Below are positions 1,960 through 39,868 of a stretch of DNA of 54,252 nt, in pieces. Position 1 is the stretch's first letter, and each line of letters opens with the position of its first letter. The notes beneath the pieces were generated by a model that did no database searches, was not told the DNA's origin, and worked only from the letters and a program-made list of their open reading frames with translations. The stretch is from a virus, in the IMG/VR virus record IMGVR_UViG_3300021373_002055, positions 1 to 54,252 of that record. The stretch is one strand, 5' to 3'. A program made the translations under genes and the position numbers.

Positions 1960-2709
1960 TTACAAATCCTGTCTTATTCCTAGTTTAGGTAGCATTGTTC
2001 GCCACCGCTTTATTATTTTTTCTTTTTCTTCGTTAGTCAACGTTCCATTGTCGACCCATATGTCTAAATATGAATTGATTACTTCAGCAAATGGTTTACG
2101 TTCTTTCTTGGCTCTAAAATACAATCCCTGAATCATTGCTGGTTGTTCTTTTTGTAACAGCCAATAATTTATAGTGTCGATGTCGCCTCGATTAATTTTG
2201 TTTCTTCGAGCCATATCCGATCTCAAATACTTGCCTTGTTTAACATTCCATCCACTCTGTGTTATGTGTTCAATTTCATGACGAAGTATGTCTTTGAGGT
2301 CCATTGATACTTCGGAAAGTACTCTCGGATATTGTTCTGGATCTATTTCAAGTCTAACTTCGATTAGTGGAGGAGTGTCTGCCTTTGCCGGGTCTTTTGC
2401 TGAGTCATTGAATGCGTCCCCGCCATAACGATATGCATTGAGTCCTTCTACCCATTGTATTTTGAGAGTCAGATAAAATTCTAATTGCACATTAGGTGCT
2501 TCAATCTCTTCGAAGTATATTTCTGGATGTTCTTCTATATGTGGTACGGACTCTCCTTTTGCAAAAAACGTTTTCTTTCCTGCAAACATACCGTCCTCTG
2601 ATTCAACACAAGAATAACTGTTTTTAACTACACTTAACAACGTGTTAGATAGTTTAGTTACCAGACTGTCATAACGGCCTTCTACAATTAATGCTTTCAT
2701 TGATATCAT
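1960..2709 (-). CDS. HExxH metallopeptidase-like protein with capsid-targeting-type leader
   Basis: A 249-residue protein. HEIEH at residues 144-148 fits the zincin zinc-binding motif HExxH and sits in an amphipathic helix, as expected. I cannot place the rest in a named peptidase family. The N-terminus is MISMKALIVEGR; a second ATG four codons in gives MKALIVEG. IVE followed by Gly matches the T4 prohead protease consensus [IL]-x-E before Ala, Gly or Ser, and resembles the T4 internal-protein leader. I infer a head-packaged, processed and possibly injected peptidase. No signal peptide is seen. An ATATTTAT box lies just upstream on the coding strand. Confidence 0.65.
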   Translation of the reverse strand: MISMKALIVEGRYDSLVTKLSNTLLSVVKNSYSCVESEDGMFAGKKTFFAKGESVPHIEEHPEIYFEEIEAPNVQLEFYLTLKIQWVEGLNAYRYGGDAFNDSAKDPAKADTPPLIEVRLEIDPEQYPRVLSEVSMDLKDILRHEIEHITQSGWNVKQGKYLRSDMARRNKINRGDIDTINYWLLQKEQPAMIQGLYFRAKKERKPFAEVINSYLDIWVDNGTLTNEEKEKIIKRWRTMLPKLGIRQDL

Positions 2710-4312: not shown

Positions 4313-4840
4313 CTATTTTTTAGATTTTTCTAATTGATCAGCATAGTACTTGAATCTATTATAATTCCATTGCATACGCTTTTTGATACCGGGTGCACCC
4401 GTTTTATATTCATTATGATTGATGTACTCTTGTGCGGCATCTTTCCAATTATTTTGTTTCATATACTGTACTGTGTTATGAGTACTTTTCAATTCTCCAC
4501 GAAACATTGCGTTAATTAATGCCTGTTTGACATACTTTGGAAGTGTGTTAAAATTTATACCTAATGTATTTTTAATTTTACTAATAGCTTTAGACACATC
4601 CATTAATAGTAAGGTAGTTGCTTCTTTTTCTGTTATTCCTTGTGAATAGTCATCCGTCGACTTCATTTTATGACCATAAGCAATAGTATCAGTTCCGCCT
4701 TCTAAACTTCCATGGGGGAACCACTTTTTCTTTTCTTTGTCCCAGCCTCGTTTAATAGAGTTTTCAAAATATTTTAACAGATCAAGAAAACTAGTAGTAG
4801 TTACCAATGATTCATTTAATATGTTATTTAGTCTAATCAT
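4313..4840 (-). CDS. GH24-type phage lysozyme with capsid-targeting-type leader
   Basis: A 175-residue muramidase-like protein. E26 (YFENS) and the segment GGTDTIAYGHKM (residues 48-59) match the Glu...Thr-Ile-x-Tyr-Gly-His core of GH24 lysozymes. The latter half (QALINAMFRGEL, then GIKKRMQWNYNRF) matches the GH24 helical lobe. An insertion separates the catalytic Glu from the GH24 strand. The N-terminus MIRLNNILNES matches the shared leader, with a gp21-type site LNE before Ser. There is no secretion signal. It overlaps the M15 peptidase gene by 4 bases. I infer a virion-packaged wall-degrading enzyme for entry, separate from the endolysin at 13.7-14.7 kb. Confidence 0.8.
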   Translation of the reverse strand: MIRLNNILNESLVTTTSFLDLLKYFENSIKRGWDKEKKKWFPHGSLEGGTDTIAYGHKMKSTDDYSQGITEKEATTLLLMDVSKAISKIKNTLGINFNTLPKYVKQALINAMFRGELKSTHNTVQYMKQNNWKDAAQEYINHNEYKTGAPGIKKRMQWNYNRFKYYADQLEKSKK

Positions 4841-5565
4841 TTTAAATCTACATGAAAATGTGGAGCCGATTTTCCTCGTTCATCAATGTAACTACTAATT
4901 AATCCGTTGTCCTTTGCATAGTCTAAAAATTTAATAACGTTGTTATTATTTTTGCCATACTTACCTCCTCGGAACAATGATAGATCTATTGCTTTACCAG
5001 ATTGGTGTCTAGACATATATTTGCCTTGTTTTTCCATGTTTTTTAAAAATGCAATTGCTTTCCGCTTTGCTTTATTTGGCTTATCTTCATGTTCTATAAA
5101 AATAGCCTCAATTGGATCACCAGCCCATCTACCATATCCAACACCTCCCTCACTTCTAGGTTTTAGGTAATTTTTATCTCCACTCCATTGCGCCCATATT
5201 GCATTAATTTGTCTTTCAGGCCCTCGATATCCAGATGTCACTACTGGACCTATAGGTCCTAGATTAGTATTAGCATCCATCCATTGAGTATATGCATTAG
5301 CAAAATTTCTAACTTTGCCTCGTATGCCTCTTAAATTAATATCTTTTGTTTGCCAATATGAACCTCTACGTTTACGAACTGTTCTATTGCGCACATACTT
5401 CCAATCATCAGCTTTAGTAGTTTGTTTGCCTGTAGATTTATCAAATACAATATTGATCTGTTCTAGATTTTGTATTGGTGGATCACCAATGTCGTACATG
5501 TCTATAGAAACCGCAGGACCGCCTTCTTGTGTAGATTCTAATAATATGTTTTTAAGTCGTATCAT
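4837..5565 (-). CDS. M15-like peptidoglycan peptidase with capsid-targeting-type leader
   Basis: A 242-residue protein. Its C-terminal half has the D-Ala-D-Ala / L-Ala-D-Glu peptidase (M15) zinc site: SGYRG near 111-115, H187-x6-D194 in HQSGKAID, and H236-x-H238 in PHFHVD. These are the expected zinc ligands in the expected order. The N-terminal 100 residues are unassigned and may dock the protein in the virion. The leader MIRLKNILLES carries LLE before Ser, a good T4 gp21-type cleavage site. It is co-transcribed with, and overlaps, the lysozyme, so one cuts glycan and the other peptide. A TATTTATA box lies just upstream. Confidence 0.82.
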   Translation of the reverse strand: MIRLKNILLESTQEGGPAVSIDMYDIGDPPIQNLEQINIVFDKSTGKQTTKADDWKYVRNRTVRKRRGSYWQTKDINLRGIRGKVRNFANAYTQWMDANTNLGPIGPVVTSGYRGPERQINAIWAQWSGDKNYLKPRSEGGVGYGRWAGDPIEAIFIEHEDKPNKAKRKAIAFLKNMEKQGKYMSRHQSGKAIDLSLFRGGKYGKNNNNVIKFLDYAKDNGLISSYIDERGKSAPHFHVDLK

Positions 5566-5589: not shown

Positions 5590-5718
5590 TTATCTGCCTT
5601 GTCCTTTGTATTTAGACTTATGACCATTCTGTCCTTTACTGGCATTCTTTGAATGAACACCTGGACGTTTCTTTTTTTGTGTGTCTTGTTTTCCTATAGA
5701 TATGTTTCTTATTGCCAT
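5590..5718 (-). CDS. Small basic conserved protein (42 aa)
   Basis: A 42-residue, very basic, Gly/Lys-rich protein beginning MAIRNISIGKQDTQKKKRPG and ending KYKGQGR. It overlaps the preceding stop as TAATG, so it is translationally coupled. Small proteins of this wording recur in Bacteroidota and T4-like phage genomes as far as I recall, with no known function. It lacks the leader of its neighbours. Charge and size suggest nucleic-acid binding. Confidence 0.65.
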   Translation of the reverse strand: MAIRNISIGKQDTQKKKRPGVHSKNASKGQNGHKSKYKGQGR

Positions 5719-5939
5719 TATTTTTTCTTTTTCTTTTTAGACTTATTGCCCCAATTTTTTGCACCTTTCTTTCTGCATTGCACTAATGCACCAGATGCAT
5801 AAGCAGACGGCCATACTTTATAACGTCGTTTTACTTTGTGATAACAAGCGTCTCGTTTTTTCTTTTTCTTTTTACTCTTGCGTTTCTTTTTACGCTTTTC
5901 ATCAAGAGCAACTTCCAATAAGTCTTTGAGTCGTATCAT
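5718..5939 (-). CDS. Lys-rich internal head protein candidate (73 aa)
   Basis: A 73-residue protein, over a third lysine or arginine, with poly-Lys tracts on both sides of a folded core CYHKVKRRYKVWPSAYASGA, then LVQCRKKGAKNWGNKS. I recall this two-Cys core from proteins and C-terminal domains of large marine phages. The leader MIRLKDLLEVALDEK contains LLE and LDE, possible gp21-type sites, although the following Val or Lys is not ideal. The extreme charge fits a DNA-neutralising internal head protein like T4 internal proteins. It overlaps both neighbours by ATGA or TAATG. Confidence 0.65.
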   Translation of the reverse strand: MIRLKDLLEVALDEKRKKKRKSKKKKKKRDACYHKVKRRYKVWPSAYASGALVQCRKKGAKNWGNKSKKKKKK

Positions 5940-6313
5940 TTTGATTTACCCCATTTTGTACCTCTACCTGGATCATCACACGCTGCTGGGGTCTTTCTGC
6001 AATCAGGACTTTTTTTACGTCCTTTCCCGGCACAAGCTTTACATTTTATTCTTCTGCCTGTTTTTTTGCTACGCTTACATGTATTGCAATCTATCCAACC
6101 TTTGCCTTTGTTGCGACTAAACCATTTTTTTAGATCTTCATCAATCTCATCTTCATACATGATCATTTGATCTTTATCAGAAAATCCGTCATCTGGAAGT
6201 TTTGCTTCTCGTTTAACGCAATTAGGAACACGCTTACCGAACATGGTTTTCATGCCCTTCTTCTCATAGCCTTTCCAGCATTTTTCTGATAATAATGGTT
6301 TAAGTTTTATCAC
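5936..6313 (-). CDS. Cys-rich protein with capsid-targeting-type leader, GTG start
   Basis: I place the start at the GTG at 6311-6313, two bases after the preceding stop, rather than the ATG at 6340 inside the previous gene. This gives a 125-residue protein beginning M(V)IKLKPLLSEK, which restores the leader shared by its neighbours (LSE as gp21-type site). The body has CWKGYEKKGMKTMFGKRVPN followed by CVK, and then a C-terminal basic Cys-rich region with WIDCNTC and IKCKACAGKG. The latter resembles a small Cys-rich domain in other T4-like marine phage proteins. Zinc binding is plausible. No enzyme function is recognised. Confidence 0.65.
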   Translation of the reverse strand: MIKLKPLLSEKCWKGYEKKGMKTMFGKRVPNCVKREAKLPDDGFSDKDQMIMYEDEIDEDLKKWFSRNKGKGWIDCNTCKRSKKTGRRIKCKACAGKGRKKSPDCRKTPAACDDPGRGTKWGKSK

Positions 6314-6315: not shown

Positions 6316-6822
6316 TTATATTCCTGCTTTGCGTGCCCATTCTTTTGAAACTTTATCTGAATCAATTGGTCCACCTTTAGCCCACGTGTCACACGTTCTA
6401 GCTGAATGGCATTTGAAATGATGCATCCAACAATATCCAAATCCTACGTATGCATCTTCTGGCATACCTGGAAAGTCTGATGCTGGTAAATCAGCCATCA
6501 TGCTATCTGCAACATCCATTGGGTCAGCATCTTCTAAATCTTCTGGAGCTTCGACAGTAGGTAAACACTTTTGCATTCTTTGTGAAATATCAAATGCTAC
6601 ACAATTACCACAACGCATACCTCGAGCTTCTGCAGGAGTAGCACCTTCCCATTCTTCACTCATCTTTTCCCAGTAACCATCACTTTCTGCAGATGGATTC
6701 ATTGGACCATATGCATGTTTTTTCCTAGTGCTGTTTCTGTTTTTAGTGTTGAGATCAACGTCTTGAGTTGCTGCTGGACATTTAGTTTCAGCTTCGATTA
6801 GTATGTGTTTTAATTTTTTCAT
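6316..6822 (-). CDS. Cys-rich protein with capsid-targeting-type leader (168 aa)
   Basis: A 168-residue protein with leader MKKLKHILIEAE; LIE before Ala is a near-perfect T4 gp21-type site. The body has an acidic middle and two Cys-rich stretches, MRCGNCVAFDIS near residue 70 and GYCWMHHFKCHSARTCDTW near 130-148. The spacing resembles small HiPIP-like or zinc-binding domains found in phage head-associated proteins. Metal type is undetermined. It lies directly upstream of the GTG-start gene with two bases between. Probably a packaged or head-associated protein. Confidence 0.65.
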   Translation of the reverse strand: MKKLKHILIEAETKCPAATQDVDLNTKNRNSTRKKHAYGPMNPSAESDGYWEKMSEEWEGATPAEARGMRCGNCVAFDISQRMQKCLPTVEAPEDLEDADPMDVADSMMADLPASDFPGMPEDAYVGFGYCWMHHFKCHSARTCDTWAKGGPIDSDKVSKEWARKAGI

Positions 6823-7759: not shown

Positions 7760-8977
7760 TTAATATTTATCAGTTACCGGGTATCCTTTATTAATACTGT
7801 CATTTGGATGTTTACCTGGTCCTTTTTTAAAATTTGTTTTATGACGATGTCCGGTACCCCATGGGCCTCCATAATCTGAGTAATCATGTTCTTTACCAAA
7901 TGGTCCTGCAAAGTCTTGTTCTTTTATAGTAGTCATATCCGTTAACAATTTCTTAAGTTTTTTAAGTATAGTGTTATGTTCTGGAGTCATTGGTATTTCT
8001 AATACTTTGCCTCCTGGGTAACCATAATCTTTTTCTGGGTGCATTATTTTGCTATGTCCAGTATCATCAATTCCCAATACTTTGTAAGGAACATTTTTCA
8101 TTGTTATTTGATTGCTAGGTATTACTGTGCATTGTTTTGGATGATCCCATTGACCTCTCGGATCTTCAATTGCGTTCATATATTTTAAAACATTTTGCCA
8201 ACTATTTTTGTCTAATGTTTTACGTTTTGTTATATGTGCTGCTAAATCGCCTATTACATCCATTTTAACGCCTCCTACAACTTGTTCTATTTGTAATTGA
8301 CTCAATGTAATACGTTTAGACATCTCTTTTAAACGAGCTAATAACCCTTTATTACGAAGTTTTTTGAAAGCTAAGTTTTCTATAGAATATTCACCTTCTG
8401 CTTCTAACCCGGTTTGTCTCATTTTGTATAATCGTTCTAATATATGTTTAATTTGATATTCTAATTTAGGATCTCGCTCTGACAAATTTTCTATTTCGTA
8501 TTCAAGTGGAGCCATTTTTGCATCAATAACTTCATCGTCGATTGATATAACATCAGCATTTGGTTTTTTTAACCATTTACTCTTCATTAATGAATATTGT
8601 CCTACTGATGAATGTAAACGATCATTCCAATCTTGTGCATATAATTCAATATCCATTCCCTTGTATGTTAACGGATAATTAGTACTCCATATGCTTTTTT
8701 TAGCCATCATTAAATTTTTAACTAAATGTAAATTCTTTCCTACTGATTGATAATCAATAACAACATGAAGATCGATATCTGATTTATCTGTCCAATTATA
8801 GTTTGCATTACTCCCAATAAGCAGAACATCTAATATTTTTGCTGTGTCTGGAACTTCTAAAAAATCATAGAATGCTTTTGCTATGCGAAGAAATTTATAG
8901 GATAGTCCTTTTTTAAGACGATCTCCGTCCCAAAGTTTTGGGTTTAATGTGCTCTGTGTTTCGTATTCGTGTAGCAT
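7760..8977 (-). CDS. Nucleotidyltransferase-fold protein (405 aa)
   Basis: Residues 40-120 carry the Pol-beta-type nucleotidyltransferase signature: GSNANYNW at 55-62, then SDIDLHVVID with D67 and D69, and a third acidic site in MDIELYAQD. The helix before it (SYKFLRIAKAFYDFLEVPD) also fits. Such proteins transfer NMP to protein, RNA or small molecules; the substrate here is unknown. A middle helical region follows, and the C-terminus (PFGKEHDYSDYGGPWGTGHR) is Gly/His-rich. Similar proteins sit near structural genes in marine T4-like phages as far as I recall. It could be a toxin-like or injected modifier, but no leader is seen. Confidence 0.7.
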   Translation of the reverse strand: MLHEYETQSTLNPKLWDGDRLKKGLSYKFLRIAKAFYDFLEVPDTAKILDVLLIGSNANYNWTDKSDIDLHVVIDYQSVGKNLHLVKNLMMAKKSIWSTNYPLTYKGMDIELYAQDWNDRLHSSVGQYSLMKSKWLKKPNADVISIDDEVIDAKMAPLEYEIENLSERDPKLEYQIKHILERLYKMRQTGLEAEGEYSIENLAFKKLRNKGLLARLKEMSKRITLSQLQIEQVVGGVKMDVIGDLAAHITKRKTLDKNSWQNVLKYMNAIEDPRGQWDHPKQCTVIPSNQITMKNVPYKVLGIDDTGHSKIMHPEKDYGYPGGKVLEIPMTPEHNTILKKLKKLLTDMTTIKEQDFAGPFGKEHDYSDYGGPWGTGHRHKTNFKKGPGKHPNDSINKGYPVTDKY

Positions 8978-10001: not shown

Positions 10002-11063
10002 TTATAATATTATATAATTTACTCCTACACTAAAATTGTGCCATCTTCTGTTCCAATATTTATTATATTTTCCTTCAAGGAATACTCCTAAACTTTTATT
10101 AAATTTATATCCAAATATCAATCCTCCAGAATAATCAATCCATTGACCGTCATTAAAATTGTGATATGAATATTCATTTGCAGTTTTAATATGAAGTGGC
10201 ATCAAGTTAGCCCAAGAATGAAGCCAAAAGTCTTTTGTATAGTGATAAAAATCAAAACCTAATACTAATGAATGATTCCATTGTAAGTCTAATGCGTTAC
10301 GTTCTTTTTCTGTATACTCTGCTAATACTTCTGGAACTACAACTGCTTCCCATACTTGTGTGTTTTCTGCAACTATATTACCTGCAGGATCAAAATATGT
10401 TACTCCACCATCACCATCAAATTCGATATTATATCCTTGTTGTAGTGCTAATTGTGTATAATGAAGATTTCCATCTGACAGTAACCATTCGTCTAATGGA
10501 TTATACCCATATGGTTCTGATATTCGTTGTACTGCACCAATATTAAATGATAATTTGTTTCCTAGTTTTTGTCTATAACGTTCTGAAGACTCAAAATACT
10601 GTATATCGGCAAATCCGTCTTGTACATATTCTACTTTTGCTATCCAATTTTTAGCAACATATCGTAAAAAGTGATCTTGATTAAAAAACGATGTACCTTG
10701 TTGACGTGTCCAATCTGCTTCAAATAAAAATTCAAATCCATTTATTTTTCCTATAGTAGCAGCGTCACCATATGTTTTTTCTGTACCATCAAAAAATACA
10801 TTAGTTCGATTTTCATATCCAAATCTTGCAATCTTTCTGATACCTAATGCAATAGAATAATCAAATGGTGTTTTTTCAGTAAACGTCTCTAATCCATCTG
10901 TTACAGAATAAACATCTACATCTGATACTGAATTACCTCCTGTTATTGCACCATAAAATGTAGAATATTTAAAAACTTTTTTAATTGTTTTTTTAAACTT
11001 AGAATCTGTTTGACTAAATGCAATGGTTGGTATTAGTAAAAATAATATTAATAATTGTTTCAT
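10002..11063 (-). CDS. Phage-encoded outer-membrane beta-barrel protein
   Basis: A 353-residue protein with a signal peptide (MKQLLILFLLIPTIAFSQ), then alternating aromatic/polar strands (SLVLGFDFYHYTKDFWLHSW, LIFGYKFNKSLGVFLEGKY) and a terminal strand NFSVGVNYIIL, as in Bacteroidota outer-membrane barrels. The final residue is Leu rather than the usual Phe. It starts inside the stop of the T9SS-type gene (ATGA), so the two are co-translated. I infer a partner or anchor for that protein, or a receptor-masking barrel. It does not read like PorP/SprF. Confidence 0.72.
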   Translation of the reverse strand: MKQLLILFLLIPTIAFSQTDSKFKKTIKKVFKYSTFYGAITGGNSVSDVDVYSVTDGLETFTEKTPFDYSIALGIRKIARFGYENRTNVFFDGTEKTYGDAATIGKINGFEFLFEADWTRQQGTSFFNQDHFLRYVAKNWIAKVEYVQDGFADIQYFESSERYRQKLGNKLSFNIGAVQRISEPYGYNPLDEWLLSDGNLHYTQLALQQGYNIEFDGDGGVTYFDPAGNIVAENTQVWEAVVVPEVLAEYTEKERNALDLQWNHSLVLGFDFYHYTKDFWLHSWANLMPLHIKTANEYSYHNFNDGQWIDYSGGLIFGYKFNKSLGVFLEGKYNKYWNRRWHNFSVGVNYIIL

Positions 11064-13435
11064 TGTTTTATAATTTTCTTGTTAAATTGTTTTCCGTCGT
11101 GCGTTATTGTTAAGAAATACACTCCAGTTTCTAATGTGTTTAGGTATAAACGATCGTCATTCCCGGTTAATACTACTTTACCAGTTGCGTCTTTTAATTC
11201 ATATACGATACTTAAATGGGTCTTAATATTTAAAATATTATCGGTTGGGTTTGGAAATACAACTATACCATTTGCTAACATTTCGTCTAAACCAACAGGC
11301 CACCCTTCTTCGCAATAGTCATACATTGATTGGCATGATGCATCCCATTCTGTTTCGCAACAATATACATCTACATCTATTACCCAAGCATAACAGCCGT
11401 TGTTTAGCCAATAAGGATTACCAGGTCCACCAACGCACCCTGCGTCGTATAGACACGCAGTTGAGTCAGATACATTTGCTTCAGGATTATAATTATATGC
11501 ATTTGGATCTGTACATCCTGCTAATGGTAGTATACAAGTCCCATTATCTGTATTAGCTAATGGATCGTAATTTAATGCAGTTGTGTCCGTACAACCAAAT
11601 ACTACTTCTATACATGATCCATTATCTGTGTTTGCTAAGGGGTCATAATTGAATGATGTTGGATCCATACAACCATAAATTACCGGTATACAAGAGCCAT
11701 CATCTACGTTTGCTAATGGATTATAATTAAAAGATTCTGGGTCTGTGCAACCATATATAGGATATATACAAGTTCCATTGTCTACATTTGCTGTTGGGTC
11801 ATAATTTAATGCTAAAGAATCCATACAGCCAAAGTATATACATGAACCATCATCGATATTTGCTTCTGCATTATAATTCCAAGACAACGGATCCATACAT
11901 CCATATACAGTAGATATGCAAGTGCCATCGTCAATATTGGCATTTGGATCATAATTAAATGCCAACTCATTTGTGCACCCATATACAATAGGAATACATG
12001 AGCCATCGTCTGTATTAGCTAATGGATTATAATTAAATGAAGTAGAGTCTAAACAACCATATATTTTAGGTTCGCAATAGTCTCCACAATATGGTAATGC
12101 TGAATATGTAATCCATGATGGAGATTCAAAAGGTTGTAATGCACCTTGTCCATTATTGGCAAAAGGATTTGATCCTTCATACATTAATTCAACACCATCT
12201 TCGTTAGTTAATTTAAATGAATTATGCCATGTTTGAAATTCAACTTCTTCTGGCGATTGTTGTGGTAACGCATTTTCAAAGTAGTAAACATATACTGGTT
12301 TATTAGTATTTAATGGGATATTAAAAGTTTGTTCACTCAATCCGAAGCCCATTGTATATGTTCCTAATGTGTTTCCGTCTTGATACACTCCGATATATGA
12401 GTTACCCCAGCCGTCAGCTGCAGCGTCACCAATCCATAATGTATAATTACATGTTTCTACTATTTGATTTATAGTAGCATCTGGATTATAATTATAAGCC
12501 GCGGTGTCGATGCACCCATATATATGCAAATTAGCACAAGTACCATCATCTACTGTAGCTTCTGGATTATATTCTTGATATGCTGAATTAGTACATCCTG
12601 GTATTGGTTCTATATTATTACACGGAACTCCATTAACAACTCCAGAATATGCAGTAGACCCAAAATTTGGCTCAGGTAGTTCCCACAATACGTTTCCATT
12701 GCAGTCATATATGACAACATCTCCGTCAATATTTCCACCAGTTGTAGATCCAGCTAAACCGTCACCATATGAATCATTAAAAACTAATTCTGCGCCAGCT
12801 GCAGGAATACATGTAGTATAACTATATGTTTGACCAATATCATTAAAGTTATAGGTACCTTGTGATATATTATATAATAAGTTCCCATTTGATTGATCTA
12901 CAAATAACCACGATGTTTCTCCTGGATAACTGTCTAATGTAACTTCGATTGTTACTTCGAAATCGCCAGGATCACAATTTTCTCCGCTGGTACCATCACA
13001 TGAACCGTCATCTTGATTAGCCCATGGGTTGTAATTTTCAGAGGTAGGCTCTGTACATCCAGGTATACATGCATATGGTGTATATGATATAGTGTCTGAT
13101 TGTGTACCGTCTACATAATTAATAACTAGATAATGTTCTACTGACCAATTTGGTGGCATATTTTGTGTCCCGGCATATACGCCAAAGTTACCACCAGGAA
13201 CATTTGCTGGTTGTCCAATTGGATATGTAAATGGACCTACACCTTCTGCCGTTGAATAAGAAACAGATTCTACTTCACAACTTCCTGGACCGTTAAACCA
13301 TTCGAATATTATAGCTGCTTGAGCGCCGTCATTGATGCATAGTTGGTATGCATTAGAACTTTCAAAATTACAATTCTGCGTTACACTTAAAAACGGAATA
13401 ATACTTACTAATAATAATAACAAAAACTTTTTCAT
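11060..13435 (-). CDS. Secreted repeat protein with type IX secretion C-terminal sorting domain
   Basis: A 791-residue exported protein. A signal peptide (about 1-20) is followed by a beta-sandwich-like region (TLDSYPGETSWLFVD, FNDSYGDGLAG) common in Bacteroidota surface proteins. Next come about eleven 24-residue repeats of the type GCxDxxxxNYNPxANxDDGSC, mostly in tandem at 11450-12065, and then a Cys-rich segment (YCCETEWDASCQSMYDYC). The last 75 residues (VVFPNPTDNILNIKT...GVYFLTI...KKIIKQ) match the type A T9SS sorting domain, which Bacteroidota use to secrete and anchor proteins. I infer that the infected host exports it to the surface. The downstream barrel gene overlaps it. Confidence 0.85.
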   Translation of the reverse strand: MKKFLLLLLVSIIPFLSVTQNCNFESSNAYQLCINDGAQAAIIFEWFNGPGSCEVESVSYSTAEGVGPFTYPIGQPANVPGGNFGVYAGTQNMPPNWSVEHYLVINYVDGTQSDTISYTPYACIPGCTEPTSENYNPWANQDDGSCDGTSGENCDPGDFEVTIEVTLDSYPGETSWLFVDQSNGNLLYNISQGTYNFNDIGQTYSYTTCIPAAGAELVFNDSYGDGLAGSTTGGNIDGDVVIYDCNGNVLWELPEPNFGSTAYSGVVNGVPCNNIEPIPGCTNSAYQEYNPEATVDDGTCANLHIYGCIDTAAYNYNPDATINQIVETCNYTLWIGDAAADGWGNSYIGVYQDGNTLGTYTMGFGLSEQTFNIPLNTNKPVYVYYFENALPQQSPEEVEFQTWHNSFKLTNEDGVELMYEGSNPFANNGQGALQPFESPSWITYSALPYCGDYCEPKIYGCLDSTSFNYNPLANTDDGSCIPIVYGCTNELAFNYDPNANIDDGTCISTVYGCMDPLSWNYNAEANIDDGSCIYFGCMDSLALNYDPTANVDNGTCIYPIYGCTDPESFNYNPLANVDDGSCIPVIYGCMDPTSFNYDPLANTDNGSCIEVVFGCTDTTALNYDPLANTDNGTCILPLAGCTDPNAYNYNPEANVSDSTACLYDAGCVGGPGNPYWLNNGCYAWVIDVDVYCCETEWDASCQSMYDYCEEGWPVGLDEMLANGIVVFPNPTDNILNIKTHLSIVYELKDATGKVVLTGNDDRLYLNTLETGVYFLTITHDGKQFNKKIIKQ
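11450..12065 (-). repeat. Tandem coding repeats, about 24 codons each
   Basis: Eight consecutive repeats within the T9SS-type protein, each encoding GC-x-D-x3-(F/L/W/Y)-NY-(N/D)-P-x-AN-x-D-(D/N)-G-(S/T)-C with the two cysteines probably paired. Units are 69-75 bases. Related but more spaced copies occur earlier in the same gene. Copy number may vary between phage relatives, since such repeats expand by slippage. Confidence 0.75.
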
Positions 13436-13719
13436 ATTTCTTCTTCTGAGTCTGTTGAGTTAGGTCGTTTAAATATTTTACCTGCTTCTGCGATACCAAA
13501 ACATCCTAATGTAATCCATAAGAATGAATTGTAAATAAATTCGTTAACATGTAATGGATTTCCCATCCATCCAGTTACGATATCTGCTACTGCAAATAAC
13601 ACCATTACTGCAAACGAAGCAAATCCTACTACGCTTTTTTCATTGATATCATTTTCGTCTTTAAAAATATTTGCGAATGCCATGAGCTTTCCCTTTAAGT
13701 TTAAGAGTAACCTTTTCAT
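13432..13719 (-). CDS. Holin-like protein, two TM helices
   Basis: A 95-residue protein with two membrane segments (about 29-50, VVGFASFAVMVLFAVADIVT, and 65-85, FLWITLGCFGIAEAGKIF). It has a basic N-terminus and an acidic hydrophilic tail (STDSEEEI), the layout of class II holins. It lies immediately downstream of the endolysin. A second ATG at 13683 gives an 83-residue form (MAFANIFKDEND) behind a GGGAAAG-like ribosome site. Two starts would allow a holin/antiholin pair as in lambda. The stop overlaps the T9SS-type gene start. Confidence 0.68.
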   Translation of the reverse strand: MKRLLLNLKGKLMAFANIFKDENDINEKSVVGFASFAVMVLFAVADIVTGWMGNPLHVNEFIYNSFLWITLGCFGIAEAGKIFKRPNSTDSEEEI

Positions 13720-13738: not shown

Positions 13739-14653
13739 TTATAATTGTTTTAACATTTCTACTAGTTCTGGTTGTGGAAAACAATCGAATTTATCTTTTC
13801 TAACATTCGTATGTGTCCATAAGCCAAATTGCTTTGCATTGTATGCATCTGCGTTAAATTCAAATGCATCTTTTGGATGAACTCCTTCTTTTAATAGTTT
13901 AGGTAGTCCATTTTCCAAATCCATTTTAGGATAAATGTCTTTTAAATGTAGAATAAGTAATCTTAAACTTTCTATTTGCTTATCTGAGTAAGCGTGCCAG
14001 TATTGATGACCTCTAAATTTATATCCTAAATCACAAACATATTCTGGTTTTACTTCAGTATTGACATATGTATAATACTTGTCGCCTTTCTTTTTGAGGT
14101 ATCCAAAATTATTTAGTTCAACACCACCTGATAGTTTGGATATTTTAAAACTTCCTACTTTACCTAGGTGCCAACCTAAATAGTTGTTTGGAAAACATTC
14201 TACTACAACGCCATCATGTTTAGTCTTGCCTTTTACATTGCTTCCACCAATACAATATTGAGTAGCTACTCGGCCTCGTTTGTCTTTGTTCCACTGACTA
14301 ACTGTGTTATATGGATTATCCCAACCAGCAGTATGATGCAAAAAGAATCCTAATGGCTCTATTTTACCATAGTCTCTTACGTATTCGTCTTTGTCTAAGT
14401 ATTGACGGTCAATTACTAATCCATCTTTAGTAGTGTATTGTGATTCTTCAGCTGCAGCTTCAGTGTCAGTATCAATACCAATAGCTTCCCATGTTTTGGT
14501 TCCAACTATACCGTCTGCTGTTAATCCGTTTTCTGATTGAAATCTGCGTACTGCTAACTCTGTATCCGCACCGAATATACCGTCTGCGGATAATTCTAAT
14601 GCAGTTTGTAACTCTTTTACGTGTGAGCCTTTACTGCCTCGTTTTAATAACAT
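13739..14653 (-). CDS. Endolysin: N-acetylmuramoyl-L-alanine amidase with PG-binding domain
   Basis: A 304-residue lytic enzyme. Residues 1-60 form a PG_binding_1 domain (KRGSKGSHVKELQTAL, then GADTELAVRRFQ and GLTADGIVGTKTW). From about 85 the Amidase_2-type fold begins with FFLHHTAGW (first zinc His) and continues with NNYLGWHLGK and a C-terminal HAYSDKQIESLRLLI. It cuts the amide between MurNAc and L-Ala. It has no signal peptide, so release depends on the adjacent holin. It is separate from the two leader-bearing hydrolases at 4.3-5.6 kb, so the phage has at least three wall enzymes. An ATATTTAT box lies upstream (14669-14676). Confidence 0.88.
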   Translation of the reverse strand: MLLKRGSKGSHVKELQTALELSADGIFGADTELAVRRFQSENGLTADGIVGTKTWEAIGIDTDTEAAAEESQYTTKDGLVIDRQYLDKDEYVRDYGKIEPLGFFLHHTAGWDNPYNTVSQWNKDKRGRVATQYCIGGSNVKGKTKHDGVVVECFPNNYLGWHLGKVGSFKISKLSGGVELNNFGYLKKKGDKYYTYVNTEVKPEYVCDLGYKFRGHQYWHAYSDKQIESLRLLILHLKDIYPKMDLENGLPKLLKEGVHPKDAFEFNADAYNAKQFGLWTHTNVRKDKFDCFPQPELVEMLKQL

Positions 14654-14689: not shown

Positions 14690-15508
14690 TTACCGTAGAT
14701 ATTTTTTATTGTTTTGAGGATTGTGCTGTATATAACCGCCCCATTTGTATTGTGCGTAAGCGTGTCCTGCTGCTTCTGCCTTCATTCTTGCTTCTCCATT
14801 GGTTGATACTGAGGCAAAATGATAGAAGCTTGTGTTCTTGGTTCTACACATTTTAATTTCAGATAAATTGCACTTTAAAAAGAAGTCCCAATCTGCAACC
14901 ATTCCTAACTCATAGTTTTCATCCCACCCACCTAATCGTAGATAATCTTTCTTATACATCATAAACGGTAATGTTGAGCCATTCCAATTGTGCCCTGCTT
15001 TTACTAAGTTTTGTTCATACTTCCAGAAACGATCTAAATCGAAACTCTCAACATCAGTACCTAAGTTTTCTATTACAAAGTCTTTGAACATAGATGGGTA
15101 TGGTTCTATCTGATTTGGTGTCAATACTATAGGATATGATCTTTCCAAATTATCCCAATATGTTCTGCTACAGTTGGAATGATATATATTCCAATCTTCT
15201 TCTAAACGGGTATCCCAATCTTTAGGAAACACATTGTCATCATTAACGATCAACACCTTATCGTATTTTGCGTTCATTACTCCTAGATTGGTTCCTCTAC
15301 ACAATCCAACATTCTGTTCCATATCGAGAATGTCAATAGATCCACCTCTGACGCTGTCATACTTGTACAGCACTTCTTTGTTTATATCGTAATGACCATC
15401 GACTACTACGATTATCTGATTAAAATTCTTTTGACCCTTTGTCGCAGACTCTAGGCATAAGTCTAGCATTTCTGGATTTTTATATGTTGGTATTATTACT
15501 GATATCAT
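14690..15508 (-). CDS. Family 2 glycosyltransferase
   Basis: A 272-residue GT-A enzyme. It opens with MISVIIPTYKNPEMLDLCLE and has QIIVVVDG, then NVGLCRGTNLGV and LIVNDDNVFP with the DDN that takes the place of the DxD metal site. I use the ATG at 15508, which overlaps the upstream stop as ATGA, instead of the upstream TTG at 15526. Last gene of the glycan island in transcription order. Donor and acceptor unknown. Confidence 0.85.
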   Translation of the reverse strand: MISVIIPTYKNPEMLDLCLESATKGQKNFNQIIVVVDGHYDINKEVLYKYDSVRGGSIDILDMEQNVGLCRGTNLGVMNAKYDKVLIVNDDNVFPKDWDTRLEEDWNIYHSNCSRTYWDNLERSYPIVLTPNQIEPYPSMFKDFVIENLGTDVESFDLDRFWKYEQNLVKAGHNWNGSTLPFMMYKKDYLRLGGWDENYELGMVADWDFFLKCNLSEIKMCRTKNTSFYHFASVSTNGEARMKAEAAGHAYAQYKWGGYIQHNPQNNKKYLR

Positions 15509-16215
15509 ATTGTATATGCTCTCCAATTAGTTAATGGTGATAGCCAGGCTGTCTCTCCGTGTGTAGCATAGCCAGGTAAAGGTGTTATCAACAACTCTCC
15601 TTGCTGTCTTAACTCTAAAAACATTTGGAAATCATTAGGATGTGTTCCTGATGTATGTTTTCTTAATATGGACTCTACTCGTTTCAATGTAGATACCTTT
15701 GCAGCAAACGTCATGGTTGTGCTATTGGTTATTTTCCAATGACAGCTGTTAGTCAAATAAACTCTTGTGTCTTCACCGCCACCTTCGCAATATGGATTAC
15801 CTCCTTTGCTTGGGTCTAGGTATTTATCTGGATGATCATATAGTGCTACAAATGATGCTCCTAATTCAAACCCTTCTCGTATTATCTTTGCTGACTCTGG
15901 TTTATGTATGTAATCATTTTCTATAAAATAAACTATATCATCATCATTATATTTCAATGCTTCGTCTAATGCTAAGTTAAATGTGCCTGCTCCATGTCCT
16001 ACTGAAACTGATTTAACTTTGGTTTCTGCTAAATGAAAAGATGTTGTTACAGCTTTTACCATATCTGTAGTTTCATCACTACAATTATCAGCAATAACTA
16101 ACCAATCTTCCTTTTCGAATCGATTCGACGCATTTACTAAACATGTTTCATTGTCTATGTAATCTGGTTTTTCTTTTTTATAACCAGCATCTGATATTCT
16201 ATAAATTATTTTCAT
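15505..16215 (-). CDS. GT-A-type glycosyltransferase-like protein
   Basis: A 236-residue protein with a GT2-like pattern: LVIADNCSDETTDMV for the nucleotide-binding strand-helix, GAGTFNLALDEAL, and VYFIENDYIHKP with the acidic END in place of DxD. The first 30 residues replace the usual I-P-x-x-N-E start, so it is a divergent member. It overlaps both neighbours by 4 bases. Glycan target unknown. Confidence 0.75.
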   Translation of the reverse strand: MKIIYRISDAGYKKEKPDYIDNETCLVNASNRFEKEDWLVIADNCSDETTDMVKAVTTSFHLAETKVKSVSVGHGAGTFNLALDEALKYNDDDIVYFIENDYIHKPESAKIIREGFELGASFVALYDHPDKYLDPSKGGNPYCEGGGEDTRVYLTNSCHWKITNSTTMTFAAKVSTLKRVESILRKHTSGTHPNDFQMFLELRQQGELLITPLPGYATHGETAWLSPLTNWRAYTI

Positions 16216-17924
16216 GTTAATTTAATTTTATTTTTTGGTACCGTATAAAAATGTTCTGATTGTTTTTTATTTAACAATGTTTGATGTGCGACAAATGTTT
16301 CTTTAATTGCATTTAAACGTATCCAATTATGCTTCCATAAAACATATGGAAATGAAATCTGATCTCGAATAGAATTATTATTTATTTCTGCCCACCACAT
16401 TTCATTGAAACTAACAATGTGACTATTGTTTCGTCTCATCAATATACCAGTTTCATATAATCCATAATCTTCATATTGTTCTCGAAGATATTTTTTTATT
16501 TGATTATTAACAATTGTGCTATCATCTAAGTTTCTTTGAATTATAACTTCTGCTTCTTGTATTATATTACTTCGATCACAATGTTCATGTAGACACATAT
16601 CAAAATTTGTCATATACAATTCAAATAAATCAACTGGGTCGTATTTAAACAAACATGAATTATCCATCCATATCCAAGCATCATAATTTGGTAAATATTT
16701 GTGCGGTAACATTTTATATTTACGGGCTTGTTTTCTAGCAGACAATTCACAATCAACTAATCTAATATCCCATGTATTAGATTTTAAATGTGGTGTATTA
16801 GTAAAACATATAAATTCTATAGAGCTATCTCTATATTCTGGCAATGTTCCGTGTATGTGTTCAATATCATCTGTAAACAATGCAGTATATACTACTAATC
16901 TTTCTTTATTCATATCAATGTTTTCAATGTGTTTAACATAATGTTTTGTGCTACAAAATTCTTCTCCGCCTTTTATAGTATTTTTTATATAGTCATTATA
17001 TCTACCATGTTCTATTTGTTCTTCAATATTTTTTTTCACAACATCTGGTTGCATTTCTACTAATCCAGGATATGAATCAAACGCACCAACGGCTCCTGCG
17101 CCTTTAATTAACACGGTTGGTATTCCTAATTGTATAGGTTTAAAACATAGTGTCGACGGAGCAGCAACTATTAGAATTGAATCTGCTATTAATTGATCAA
17201 TATCCTCACAATTTGTAACAACATCACAATCTAGTATACTTTTAACATAATTTATATCTTCAACATAGTTTGGTTTATCAAGTCTTGTTTTTATTTTAAC
17301 CTTTATAGGACATTGAAACTTTTCTTGTAATTCTAATAGACCGGTTCGTTGTATAAATGTTTTATCAAAGTTAACTGGAAATATGGAGCTACGATTTGAT
17401 AAAAAGTTAGTTATAACTAAAATATGCTTATTGTTACCTTTAACATGTTTTAGTGTGTCATTAGTTGGTATGCCTCCTTTACTAAAGTCCATACTATAAT
17501 CATATGCAGTTCCAATTTCGTTATGTGGTGAATCTTCATTTCCGTGTGAGTTGCCGATTACTATAACATTATTTTGTTTACAATATTGATAAAAAGATGG
17601 AATATTATATTCTGGTTTCTTTCTATTGTCATCGTATATTACAAACTTATACTTAGATATATCTATATAATCACAAAGACTTTGCTTTATACGATCTCCA
17701 TGAAATTGCACTCCTGGCCCTTGTATTATATTATCAATATAATCTTTGTATTGTTCTAGTTTTAACTCACGTTCATCTATATCACCTACCCATGGTGTTT
17801 CGTTACTAAACAATCCAATTGAAAACAAATCAATAACATAATTTTTAGATAATTCGGGTATGATAGGCCATAGTTTTTCTGCAACACGATGATTAGTAAA
17901 TAATAATAAAACACGTTGATCCAT
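16212..17924 (-). CDS. Two-domain glycosyltransferase, DUF616-like C-terminus
   Basis: A 570-residue protein in two parts. Residues 1-320 have GT-B-like wording (LLLFTNHRVAEKLWPIIPEL, then ADSILIVAAPSTLCFKPIQL and IPTVLIKGAGAVGAF), as in polysaccharide-processing transferases. From about 325 the DUF616 pattern begins: LVVYTALFTDDIEHI, IEFICFTN, SARKQARKYKMLPHKYLP, DAWIWMDNS and YGLYETGILMRRN. The fusion could perform two sequential additions. I use the ATG at 17924 (TAATG overlap), not the TTG at 17942. Confidence 0.75.
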   Translation of the reverse strand: MDQRVLLLFTNHRVAEKLWPIIPELSKNYVIDLFSIGLFSNETPWVGDIDERELKLEQYKDYIDNIIQGPGVQFHGDRIKQSLCDYIDISKYKFVIYDDNRKKPEYNIPSFYQYCKQNNVIVIGNSHGNEDSPHNEIGTAYDYSMDFSKGGIPTNDTLKHVKGNNKHILVITNFLSNRSSIFPVNFDKTFIQRTGLLELQEKFQCPIKVKIKTRLDKPNYVEDINYVKSILDCDVVTNCEDIDQLIADSILIVAAPSTLCFKPIQLGIPTVLIKGAGAVGAFDSYPGLVEMQPDVVKKNIEEQIEHGRYNDYIKNTIKGGEEFCSTKHYVKHIENIDMNKERLVVYTALFTDDIEHIHGTLPEYRDSSIEFICFTNTPHLKSNTWDIRLVDCELSARKQARKYKMLPHKYLPNYDAWIWMDNSCLFKYDPVDLFELYMTNFDMCLHEHCDRSNIIQEAEVIIQRNLDDSTIVNNQIKKYLREQYEDYGLYETGILMRRNNSHIVSFNEMWWAEINNNSIRDQISFPYVLWKHNWIRLNAIKETFVAHQTLLNKKQSEHFYTVPKNKIKLT

Positions 17925-18568
17925 TATCCTATACCTTTCCAAGTTGCTCCATTTCCAGTATAAAAATGATTAACTGATATGGATGAGTCGTAAATATAAT
18001 GTTGATGTTTATCTATCATATCTTTTGCCCAATATCTATCTTCTTTGCCTGGATATTGTTCCGGCATTGGATTATTAACTAAAACGGCTTTTTCATAAAA
18101 ACAAAATGCGTTATGAAGAAAATATCGTTGTTCTATATCTGAATACATATCCAATGTATCTTCTTCAGAAAAATGACTCCATATATATCTTTTTGATATT
18201 TTTTTGCCTTTGTATACAGGAATTTGATTTCCAAATACTGCTACATTTTTATTTTTAAAATGCATCACAACACGTTCAAGATTCATGTTAGTAATTTGAG
18301 CGTGTGCTGATAGTACCAAAACATAGTCATTAGAACATTGTTTAACACCCATATTAATTGATTTGCCAGGCGTATAGTCGTTGATTGATATAATTTTAAT
18401 CGTAGTTCGATCTTTAAATAAATTGACAATTTCTAATGAATCATCAGTAGATTTATTATCTACTATTATGATTTCTGGTTTTTTGAAATGATCTAAACAA
18501 GATTGAATAGCAAATCCTATAAACTCGGCCTCATTTCTATTTCTTATAATAATGCTAATATTATCCAT
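17924..18568 (-). CDS. Family 2 glycosyltransferase (short)
   Basis: A 214-residue GT2: ISIIIRNRNEAEFIGFAIQS, EIIIVDNKSTDDS with the conserved Asp, GKSINMGVKQC and LVLSAHAQI in place of the usual DxD stretch, then RYIWSHFSEED. The missing canonical DxD may mean metal-independent or changed donor use. The real start is the ATG at 18568; the codon before it is TTG. It overlaps the NeuB gene by 8 bases. Confidence 0.8.
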   Translation of the reverse strand: MDNISIIIRNRNEAEFIGFAIQSCLDHFKKPEIIIVDNKSTDDSLEIVNLFKDRTTIKIISINDYTPGKSINMGVKQCSNDYVLVLSAHAQITNMNLERVVMHFKNKNVAVFGNQIPVYKGKKISKRYIWSHFSEEDTLDMYSDIEQRYFLHNAFCFYEKAVLVNNPMPEQYPGKEDRYWAKDMIDKHQHYIYDSSISVNHFYTGNGATWKGIG

Positions 18569-19358
18569 CAAATCTACCTGTATAATTTAATCTTGAATCT
18601 AACTCAAAATCTTGATAATCTAGTCCATTTTCAATCATCATATCATTTCGTAATTTTAAGTATTCAGATAAGTTATTTAATTGTTTAGGAAGTATTGCAA
18701 ATTTATTGTCTCTTCCTGGCAATTCATTATCTACCGTAAAATGTTTTTCAATTGCATGTATTCCGAATTCAATTGCAACTTTTGCAGATTCAACCCCTTG
18801 CATATGATCTGAATATCCAACCCATTTAAACAATTTATTTAATTCTTTTAATTTTAAAATATTTGCATTTTTTGGATGTAATGGATATGTTGAAACACAA
18901 TGCATTATACACGTTTTATTAATATCAATAATACGTGCTAACTCTTTAACTTCATCCCATGTAGTAGTTCCAATTGATATATATACTTTATCAAACACCT
19001 CCATGCATTTTTTAATAAGCGGATAATTTCTACTTTCGAAAGATGGTATCTTTACACACTTTGTTGTTACTTGTTTATATATCTCAATATCTCGTAATGA
19101 AAATACAGATGACATAAATTCGATATTATTATCATCACATACCTGTTTAAGATATTTATGGTCAGCTAATGTTAATTGAGCTTTTTCATATATTTCACGA
19201 CGGCCATCAGTATCCCATACTCCAGGTTTAAGATTACTTACTGACCATGATTGAAATTTTGCATGTGTCGCTCCATTTGCTGCCGCTTCATTAATCATTT
19301 GTTTTGCTAATGCCATATCACCCATATGGTTCCAGCCTATTTCTGCTATAATATTCAT
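18561..19358 (-). CDS. neuB: NeuB-like sialic acid (nonulosonate) synthase, without SAF domain
   Basis: A 265-residue PEP-dependent aldol synthase of the NeuB family. It has MNIIAEIGWNHMGDMALAKQ, THAKFQSW, FMSSVFSLRD, KIPSFE, YISIGTTTWDEVKEL and a late AIEKHFTVDNELPGRD, which cover the TIM barrel and its metal and PEP sites. Usual NeuB is about 340-350 residues with a C-terminal antifreeze-like SAF domain; this copy ends before it. NeuB joins PEP to a ManNAc- or bacillosamine-type hexose to make sialic, legionaminic or pseudaminic acid. NeuA follows it, overlapping by 4 bases. The exact sugar is unknown. Confidence 0.85.
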   Translation of the reverse strand: MNIIAEIGWNHMGDMALAKQMINEAAANGATHAKFQSWSVSNLKPGVWDTDGRREIYEKAQLTLADHKYLKQVCDDNNIEFMSSVFSLRDIEIYKQVTTKCVKIPSFESRNYPLIKKCMEVFDKVYISIGTTTWDEVKELARIIDINKTCIMHCVSTYPLHPKNANILKLKELNKLFKWVGYSDHMQGVESAKVAIEFGIHAIEKHFTVDNELPGRDNKFAILPKQLNNLSEYLKLRNDMMIENGLDYQDFELDSRLNYTGRFDG

Positions 19359-19894
19359 AGTCGTTCTTTTGCTCGTTCTAAATCTTGTTGGTAATGTATA
19401 TCGGTTGCATCATCTTTTATACATCCTATTCTTTTTGAAACATTACTGTTTAGTAAATGATCATATTTAAAAATTCTAACAGATCCGCTCCGTTTAAATG
19501 ATGGTTCAATTGTAATCAAATCGTCATAGTTATTATCTATCATATAATCTACACAATAATCAAAAGTATGTTCTCTGTCTGGATGATCAGGTTGTAAACA
19601 AACTATTAAATCAAATTCTTTATCTATTGAATTAAGTAAATCAATATACACATCTGTTACCTCTGCGTCTTTAAGTAAATGTACTGGTCGCTCTACAAAT
19701 GTTACTTTATTATCTAATGCTATTTTTAATACTTCATCACTTTCTGATGAAACAACAATTGTAGGATTATATTTACTTTGTTTAGCATAATCAATTGAAT
19801 ACTCAACTAATGTTTTACCTTTAATTTTTTGTATATTTTTTTTAGGTAATCTAGTTGAATCTGTTTTTGCTGGTATTATTGTTAATATCTTCAT
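19355..19894 (-). CDS. neuA: NeuA-like CMP-nonulosonate cytidylyltransferase
   Basis: A 179-residue nucleotidyltransferase of the CMP-sialic acid synthetase group. IIPAKTDSTRLPKKNIQKIK matches the CTP-binding signature (A-R/K-x-x-S-x-R-x-P-x-K-N). KTLVEYSI, IVVSSESDEVLKIA and LIVCLQPDHP follow in the usual order. It is shorter than the usual 220-residue enzyme but keeps the core. It would activate the NeuB product with CMP for transfer. It overlaps neuB and the dehydrogenase gene by 4 bases each, so all three are one unit. Confidence 0.85.
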   Translation of the reverse strand: MKILTIIPAKTDSTRLPKKNIQKIKGKTLVEYSIDYAKQSKYNPTIVVSSESDEVLKIALDNKVTFVERPVHLLKDAEVTDVYIDLLNSIDKEFDLIVCLQPDHPDREHTFDYCVDYMIDNNYDDLITIEPSFKRSGSVRIFKYDHLLNSNVSKRIGCIKDDATDIHYQQDLERAKERL

Positions 19895-20838
19895 AATTTA
19901 TTTATAGCCCATTTATATGCTCTAGTTTGACCTTCAATCGTCATTCCGCCAGTATGTGGTGTAACAATTATATTTTCTCCTTGATTCATTGCTTGTATAA
20001 TAGGAGATGCTTGTAAGTCGTCAAATTCATTTTCAACTACATCTGCACCATAACCTGATATAACTTTATTTTCCAATGCTTCTACAATGTCTTGTTCGTT
20101 AACTATTTCTCCTCTACTGGTATTAATAATATATGGAGATTTTTTACTATATCCAAGTAATTCTTTATTAATCATGTACTTCGTTTCATCAGTAACATGC
20201 ACGTGTAACGATATAACATCACATTGTTTAAACATATCTGTTAACTCGCAATAAGTATTAAGTAAAAACGCATCATCCATTTCATCTCGTTTATATGGAT
20301 CATATACTTTTACATTAGCTCCAAATGCTTTACAATAACTGTACATCATTTTTCCTAAACGACCGTAGCCAATGATACCTATAGTCAATGATTTAACTTC
20401 TCGTCCTATAAATGGTATATAGTCCCAATTATATTCAGAAACATGTTGTTTGCTTTGTGGTATACTTCGTAGCAATGACAACATTAGTCCAAATGCTAAT
20501 TCTGAAGTAGATGGTAACTGTTTAATTAATTCATAATCTTTAGTTAAAGACAAAATTTTAATGTTTTGTTTTTTACAATATTCAACGTCGATATGATTCA
20601 TACCAGTTGAACATGTATTGATTAAGTTAACATCGGTTCCTTGTAATAGCTCTTTATCAATTTTATATGTTTGTTGATTAGGATTACAAACTATAGTATC
20701 AATATTACGTTTTAATAGTAAATCTCTAACTTGTTCTTTTGTTGATTCTTCACGAAGATATAACTCGTCACTTTTATTTATAAGTAATTGTACGATTCCG
20801 TCTAAATGAAATACTGGGGTTATTACTGCTATTTTCAT
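19891..20838 (-). CDS. D-2-hydroxyacid dehydrogenase
   Basis: A 315-residue NAD-dependent dehydrogenase. The Rossmann motif is GIIGYGRLGKMMYSYCKAFG. NTSRGEIVNEQDIVEALE carries the catalytic Arg, GYGADVVENEFDD the catalytic Glu, and TPHTGGMT the catalytic His. Members reduce 2-keto acids. In this setting it may supply or trim a 2-keto acid sugar or a PEP/pyruvate-derived group near neuA and neuB, but the substrate cannot be read. Full length for the family. Confidence 0.85.
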   Translation of the reverse strand: MKIAVITPVFHLDGIVQLLINKSDELYLREESTKEQVRDLLLKRNIDTIVCNPNQQTYKIDKELLQGTDVNLINTCSTGMNHIDVEYCKKQNIKILSLTKDYELIKQLPSTSELAFGLMLSLLRSIPQSKQHVSEYNWDYIPFIGREVKSLTIGIIGYGRLGKMMYSYCKAFGANVKVYDPYKRDEMDDAFLLNTYCELTDMFKQCDVISLHVHVTDETKYMINKELLGYSKKSPYIINTSRGEIVNEQDIVEALENKVISGYGADVVENEFDDLQASPIIQAMNQGENIIVTPHTGGMTIEGQTRAYKWAINKL

Positions 20839-23614: not shown

Positions 23615-24268
23615 TTATAATCCTTCGTATAATTTATTTTGTCGTTCTTGTCGATCAATTGTTTTGTCGTGACGTAAACACCACTGCTCTTCAATTGGAA
23701 GATAACTCATTGTCCGGTAGCCTTCTAATACTTCATGAACTCGATTTACCCATGTTATCTTTTTATTGTTCTTGTAAATGCGCCATTGAAAGTCCGGAAA
23801 GTTTACCCAACCTTGATCATTAACACCCCAATTCCATTTTGCTATATGTTCTTTAGTAAGCCCTTCAACTGTGTTTATTCTAGGAACTTTTAACACATCA
23901 ACGTCATTATGTTTTAATACTTCAGGTATCATATCCATCATATATGTTGTAGGCATCTCATCTGCGTCTATCTGAAATATGTAATCTCCTGAGCAATTAT
24001 CTGTTAGGTTGTTTTTAAAGTTGGCAAAGTGATTATCTAATGAAAAATCACATATAAATTTAATTCGACCTTCTTTATATAAATTACCACAATATAGATT
24101 AACTTCCATTTCGGGTGTTAGTGGAGTATGGGATGCAGATTTTTTATATGCCCCATCTTGTTGTACAACTATCTCATCTTGCTCACGTTTGTTTTCTAAA
24201 AGAAAATTCAGTAAACGTTGTATCTCTATAAATTCATTGCAGACTGTTATAGCGTAACTTATTTTCAT
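23615..24268 (-). CDS. Family 2 glycosyltransferase
   Basis: A 217-residue GT2: ISYAITVCNEFIEIQRLLN, DEIVVQQDGAYK, NNLTDNCSGDYIFQIDADEM with the DAD metal site, and later WRIYKNNKKITWVNRVHEVL. The short C-terminus matches simple transferases of the LPS/KDO-type group. Overlaps the 60-aa gene by 4 bases. Confidence 0.85.
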   Translation of the reverse strand: MKISYAITVCNEFIEIQRLLNFLLENKREQDEIVVQQDGAYKKSASHTPLTPEMEVNLYCGNLYKEGRIKFICDFSLDNHFANFKNNLTDNCSGDYIFQIDADEMPTTYMMDMIPEVLKHNDVDVLKVPRINTVEGLTKEHIAKWNWGVNDQGWVNFPDFQWRIYKNNKKITWVNRVHEVLEGYRTMSYLPIEEQWCLRHDKTIDRQERQNKLYEGL

Positions 24269-24447: not shown

Positions 24448-24478
24448 ATTATATTATAATAAATTTACTTTAAATATC

Positions 24479-39867: not shown

Positions 39868-39868
39868 A

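Follow-up and report, generated by a model that had tools for sequence, protein, structure and literature searches.

A lysozyme and an M15-like peptidase with predicted capsid-targeting leaders suggest delivery of wall enzymes from the head of a T4-related phage

Here, we describe two adjacent genes for predicted peptidoglycan hydrolases that both start with a leader of the type that directs T4 internal proteins to the capsid. The genes are located in a virus record of 54,252 bases (the window, i.e., the whole stretch of DNA that was analysed), which is a fragment without head genes and from which the baseplate genes are also mostly missing. A gene for an M15/VanY-like zinc peptidase of 242 aa (4837-5565, minus strand) is followed by a gene for a GH24 lysozyme of 175 aa (4313-4840, minus strand), and the two overlap by ATGA at 4837-4840, the 4-base overlap that the original prediction had reported. 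Based on sequence comparisons, we suggest that both enzymes are probably head cargo of a T4-superfamily phage and leave the head together with the DNA in order to open the wall.

In T4, internal proteins carry a capsid targeting sequence (CTS) of 10 residues, in which residues 4 and 7 function in targeting and residues 8 and 10 in processing, and the protease gp21 cleaves after the Glu residue in an L/I-x-E motif (PMC9026906). Otherwise, these proteins are a diverse set in which only the CTS is conserved (PMC3012670). Both window enzymes start with MIRL[KN]NIL[LN]E, and the window leaders have L4, I7, L8 and E10. MIRLKNILLE/S of the peptidase (5536-5565, minus strand, 10 codons, supported by the leader profile; the slash marks the predicted cut) and MIRLNNILNE/S of the lysozyme (4811-4840, minus strand, 10 codons) have hydrophobic residues at positions 4, 7 and 8 and Glu at position 10, and in this way fit the T4 rule, as expected from the claim that both carry a gp21-type leader. 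The exact pattern was matched at residue 1 of four ORFs in the window and at three nominally internal places in ~19,000 positions, one of which is a GTG start. A chance origin of the leader was ruled out because the matches concentrate at residue 1 and the codons vary synonymously. A conserved DNA element was also ruled out because the conserved positions are encoded by five different Leu codons and by both common Ile codons; this synonymous variation argues that selection acts on the peptide and not on the DNA. Finally, hydropathy analysis ruled out a signal peptide on either enzyme. The hydrophobic N-terminal segment that is present in the true signal peptides of the window is absent from both, and the earlier statement that they have no secretion signal is borne out.

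The identity of the lysozyme is firm, with its activity being predicted from sequence and structural modelling. The protein matches PF00959 above the cut-off of 22.3 (26.5 bits, E=8.5e-6), and an AlphaFold2 model computed from nine sequences has a pLDDT of 87, with residues 1-8 below 50. This model matches T4 lysozyme (T4L) with a Foldseek probability of 1.00 and a VIA Z score of ~12.9 over 136 residues (rmsd 2.7-2.8); the earlier assignment as GH24-like is thus confirmed. In the VIA alignment, residues 16-166 of the model correspond to residues 1-156 of T4L. Because residue 16 corresponds to T4L residue 1, the leader is a segment added ahead of the fold. E26 aligns with the catalytic E11 of T4L, and T52 precedes IAYGH in the same way as T26 precedes IGIGH in T4L; E26, T52, G56 and H57 are invariant in the nine lysozyme homologues. 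The loop at the position of T4L D20 is longer, and the invariant E47 is a candidate second acid.

For the second enzyme, we consider it very likely from its motifs that 4837-5565 encodes a true M15-type peptidase. The zinc motif SxHxxGxAxD and the downstream HxH are present as SRHQSGKAID and HFH (S185, H187, G190, A192, D194, H236 and H238), and a VTSGYR...Q segment aligns with M15, with a hhalign probability of only 19%. Matches to Pfam were below the cut-off of 25 (PF02557 (VanY), 15.9 bits, E=0.012; PF13539, 13.2 bits), a single-sequence model was poor (pLDDT 51), and no sequence match was found in the PDB. Relatives of the peptidase were found neither in viral contigs nor in phage records at E<=1e-3 nor in 11 related records; at E<=10, the sole match of the C-terminal part was to a "peptidase M15B and M15C" of P-HM1 (two records, one phage) with E=7, which is a hint and not evidence. 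The original prediction named H187, D194, H236 and H238, and these residues are in place within the motifs; its wording "M15-like" is the right one, plain "M15" being unproven with sub-threshold Pfam scores.

The two enzyme genes are the last ones in a closely spaced series of leader-tagged genes on the minus strand. Upstream of them, 6316-6822 encodes a protein of no assigned function (MKKLKHILIE/A), 5936-6313 a basic protein with a GTG start (VIKLKPLLSE/KCWKGYEKKG) in which a module directly follows the leader Glu, and 5718-5939 a basic protein (MIRLKDLLEV) with the module DACYHKVKRRYKVWPSAYASGALVQCRK, which is also present in a cyanophage protein encoded between neck and terminase genes. 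Amid these tagged genes, a lysine-rich, basic ORF of 42 aa (5590-5718, minus strand) is itself untagged, and a sequence resembling its end also precedes the lysozyme gene in the related contig L002. Elsewhere in the window, a tagged acidic protein of no assigned function (MIRLKDLITE/Q) is encoded at 48409-49128 on the minus strand, and 48028-48393, on the same strand, has a variant leader. A HExxH protein encoded at 1960-2709 (minus strand) has the variant CTS-like start MISMKALIVE/GRYDS; the protein is conserved in relatives, in nearly all of which its start is leader-like, and may be a tagged metalloprotease. The endolysin with PG_binding and Amidase_2 domains (13739-14653, minus strand) is untagged and serves as an internal control; it is in the same strand block as the tagged enzyme genes but 8 kb apart from them. 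The earlier note had described an amidase endolysin next to a holin. The amidase is confirmed by Pfam, whereas the supposed holin (13432-13719) is only a small ORF of membrane type that matched no family.

To examine the leader more broadly, we compiled 60 non-redundant starts from related phages, which were selected on residues 1-8 only. Although Glu was not a search term, 40 of the 60 have it at position 10 and a further 8 at position 9, and many of the starts without Glu at either position are evident signal peptides. The cytidylyltransferase of S-SM1 (T4-GC190) was detected by mass spectrometry in virions (PMC3037559), and this protein begins with MKKFSAFLNE/A, a leader of equal length. 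Moreover, the basic modules of 5718-5939 and 5936-6313 recur within one cyanophage protein, which is encoded between the neck/small-terminase and large-terminase genes and is annotated as a structural protein in S-P4; in P-TIM68, the module directly follows a Glu as it does in 5936-6313 (NLDE/KCWPGYEKKG vs LLSE/KCWKGYEKKG). The S-SM1 start and the cyanophage module boundary are two independent anchors that support processing of the leader. What are separate tagged genes at 5718-6313 are fused in the cyanophage T4-GC119 protein, and the comparison suggests that the latter may be a cleaved internal head polyprotein. We also note that cytidylyltransferase-type proteins with CTS-like leaders are encoded both in G003 (80754-81668, MGIRMKSILQE) and in S-SM1 (148256, MKKFSAFLNE).

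Larger relatives of the window phage were reached through the neighbouring gene 7760-8977. The gp21/S77 protease is encoded in G001 (131 kb), G002 (160 kb), G003 and G009 (E 2e-26 to 4e-35), its gene is surrounded by those for portal, scaffold and major capsid protein (MCP) in those relatives read, and the MCPs of relatives have [IV]xE/[AS] at the position of the T4 gp23 cut. At the locus matching 4313-5565, relatives encode a leader-tagged wall hydrolase, the family of which changes. Tagged GH24 enzymes, often with LysM, are found in L002, L003, L020, L021, G002 and G011, GH24 enzymes of a different type in G003 and G005/L033, Phage_lysozyme2 in G001 (with LysM), G007 and L023, and SleB/Hydrolase_2 in L034 and L036 (below cut-off in L036). 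G006, which is the closest relative as judged from the neighbouring gene, has tagged SleB and VanY proteins side by side, and G002 has, at another locus, a second tagged protein that is a fusion of M23 and Phage_lysozyme2. Thus, the pairing of a peptidase with a glycosidase recurs with unrelated enzymes; a search with the G006 VanY protein found no further relatives. In freshwater L012, a lysozyme gene with a variant leader adjoins the MCP, scaffold and gp21 genes. By contrast, the lysis amidase has the leader in none of seven copies. A rough Fisher test for enrichment of the leader on wall hydrolases gave p=6e-12, a value that is a guide only because it uses approximate gene counts, only two of the seven amidases and non-independent relatives. 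Because a family search of the genomes missed the G002 GH24 enzyme that was found by Pfam hmmscan, absences in that search were not counted as evidence.

Other proteins in the relatives have similar starts. A Fe/Mn superoxide dismutase (SOD) with the leader MKLMSILTE/S or A is encoded in L002 (7831-8469), L003 (3327-3965), L020 (12771-13409) and L021 (4699-5337), where the genes adjoin those for tagged basic proteins, and may be packaged in the head; the start of G011 22246-22887, MITLKRILTE, is similar to this leader. Tagged kinase-like proteins, with a glycine-rich loop and DN...D recognized by eye, are encoded in G001 (101480-102025), G002 (107621-108163) and G003 (71479-72027), and the one that was run against Pfam had no kinase match. 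In G001, a tagged protein of 163 aa (44098-44589) has a LTTYHGS motif reminiscent of ADP-ribosyltransferases (cf. T4 Alt) and no family match, and three tandem paralogues (124506-126541) each have a MIKMKNILAENMIRFGTKNLSE-like sequence near the start, i.e., a duplicated leader-bearing N-terminus.

The window phage is T4-related, and its host is probably a member of the Bacteroidota (flavobacteria and kin). Adjoining the lysis genes, 11060-13435 encodes a protein of 791 aa in which 'YGCTD..A.NYNP.A..DDGSC' units are repeated and the C-terminus resembles a type IX secretion sorting domain; the repeats together with this C-terminus point to a Bacteroidota host. The window also has a large sugar operon (14690-27204) with glycosyltransferases, epimerases and NeuA/NeuB-like genes (18561-19894), and genes of the 7-deazaguanine pathway (32498-33754 and 39097-41319; TGT-like, QueD/QueE/FolE-like), which suggest that the phage DNA is modified.

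Tail-borne wall enzymes were compared in the same group of phages. In immuto, a Flavobacterium phage isolate with an MCP that is 56% identical to that of G002, the tail-region protein gp033 ends in a VanY/M15 domain (PF02557, E=6.6e-10); leaders are few in immuto, and none of its annotated wall enzymes carries one. In cyanophage P-HM1, an M15 gene is located among baseplate genes. The window encodes a tail protein (52472-54250, minus strand) that is homologous to the N-terminal part of gp033 without the C-terminal M15 domain, and the M15 motif is absent from the gp033 homologues of the window, G001, G002 and G006. Ten further proteins of G002, mostly of the tail region, matched no hydrolase family, and thus no hydrolase was recognized in any of the tail or baseplate proteins examined in this relative. 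These comparisons are consistent with a move of the wall-cutting function from the tail to the head in this clade, although the phage may also have a divergent or second wall enzyme on the baseplate.

Altogether, these findings can be accommodated in a model in which the leader docks the newly made enzyme into the prohead core and gp21 then cleaves after E10. The basic mature enzymes (pI of the precursors ~9.6-9.8) would remain with the DNA in the head, exit through the tail at infection and act in the periplasm, where the muramidase would cut glycan strands and the peptidase stem peptides or cross-links, thereby opening the wall for DNA entry. The pair in the head would replace the tail-borne wall enzyme of T4 (gp5), cyanophages and immuto. 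Because the window lacks head genes, we infer its own gp21 and core from relatives. The step from a gp21-type leader to head cargo, as made in the original prediction, has gained strong comparative support from the T4 rule, gp21 in relatives, the unrelated tagged hydrolases and the untagged amidase; nevertheless, it is a step that we still infer. The main difficulty is the site of release. T4 internal proteins end up in the cytoplasm, in which a wall enzyme would serve no purpose, and release in the periplasm must, therefore, be assumed; the presence of LysM on several of the tagged lysozymes is an argument for peptidoglycan as the target. The size of the enzymes is no obstacle, given that T4 delivers Alt and that even beta-galactosidase is delivered when fused to a CTS (PMC9026906).

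As an alternative, the enzymes could be packaged and ejected but function after entry, in wall remodelling, sealing, superinfection exclusion or against the host. In T4, the internal proteins and Alt have their role once the DNA has entered (PMC9026906), and other apparent cargo (Fe/Mn SOD, kinase-like and basic DNA-binding-type proteins) is of a post-entry type. However, domains that degrade peptidoglycan and LysM domains require the periplasm, the recurring pairs of glycosidase and peptidase resemble entry enzymes, and the tail homologue examined has no wall enzyme of its own; we consider such a role unlikely. That the enzymes are accessory lysis enzymes made late, of which little or none is packaged and in which the leader docks elsewhere or is an inhibitory propeptide, is quite improbable. 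While several of the domains in relatives are best known from endolysins, and the genes share a strand block with the distant amidase, the lysis amidase is never tagged, the leader is also present on SOD, kinase-like and basic proteins without a role in lysis, and E10 within the L/I-x-E rule fits gp21 rather than an export or membrane signal.

The best PHROG match of the lysozyme, "baseplate hub subunit and tail lysozyme", could instead suggest enzymes of the tail or baseplate like T4 gp5, with the leader as a tag for tail assembly, and both immuto and P-HM1 have M15 domains in proteins of the tail region, which agrees with such a location. However, the PHROG match spans the catalytic domain only, and 175 aa is too short to include the OB or beta-helix parts of gp5. 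The tagged set mostly comprises small basic proteins, SOD and other non-tail proteins, and the L012 lysozyme gene is next to head genes, making a tail location a shade more improbable than a role in lysis. The N-terminal similarity could also reflect a membrane-binding amphipathic helix and not a capsid tag, given that the pattern, judged by eye, is amphipathic with basic residues early. This is the least probable of the alternatives because Glu is fixed at position 10 (or 9) and the boundary is cut-like, with the cyanophage modules starting right after it. We, therefore, favor the model in which both enzymes are delivered from the head to open the wall. More tentatively, and with slightly less than even confidence, we suggest that a clade of T4-like Bacteroidota phages shifted its wall enzymes from the tail tip to the head, with a plug-in tag that packages, trims and injects any tagged enzyme via the contractile tail. 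On the same tentative footing, this cargo would comprise lysozymes of several families, M15/M23 peptidases, SOD, kinase-like proteins and the HExxH metalloprotease.

If correct, a contractile-tailed phage delivers small wall enzymes from the head instead of mounting them on the tail. The T4 capsid targeting sequence would then be a general address label beyond a few anti-restriction proteins, sequence alone would suffice to list what uncultured T4-like phages carry in the head, and the tagged genes would be a source of natural pairs of peptidase and muramidase, maybe co-evolved for Bacteroidota walls. Our literature search, which was incomplete in that most subscription papers were outside it, found no published report of CTS-tagged wall hydrolases. 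Compared to T4 IPI-IPIII and Alt, the window proteins are alike in having a 10-residue leader on unrelated proteins, ending with Glu in L/I-x-E and hydrophobic at positions 4, 7 and 8, and in the S77 protease gp21, here in relatives. They differ in that the T4 cargo is anti-restriction or ADP-ribosylating while the window cargo is wall-degrading. The T4 leader sequence, MKTYQEFIAE, is also unlike MIRLKNILLE of the window. Packaging of wall enzymes in the head, which the original prediction considered unusual, is in itself established in podoviruses, e.g., T7 gp16, SP6 gp36, phiKMV gp36 and phi29 gp3 (PMC5380687); what stands from that claim is the proposed use of the T4 targeting tag for this purpose in a T4-like myovirus. 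As we propose for the window phage, the podovirus hydrolases are in the head and are ejected at entry. However, they are large core/ejection proteins or linked to the DNA, whereas the window enzymes are small, stand-alone proteins with a predicted cleavable tag in a T4-like phage with a contractile tail. T4 gp5 shares the GH24 fold and the presumed role in entry but is a subunit of the tail spike, while the window lysozyme is a catalytic domain only with a head-type leader. Similarly, immuto gp033 and P-HM1 demonstrate M15-type peptidases in T4-superfamily phages, but within a tail-region protein, in contrast to the separate leader-tagged gene of the window. Finally, polyvalent proteins with lysozyme or DD-peptidase domains are predicted to be delivered (PMC5512222). 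They resemble the system described here in the predicted delivery of wall enzymes together with other effectors; however, they are large multidomain fusions, while the window encodes separate proteins with a common tag.
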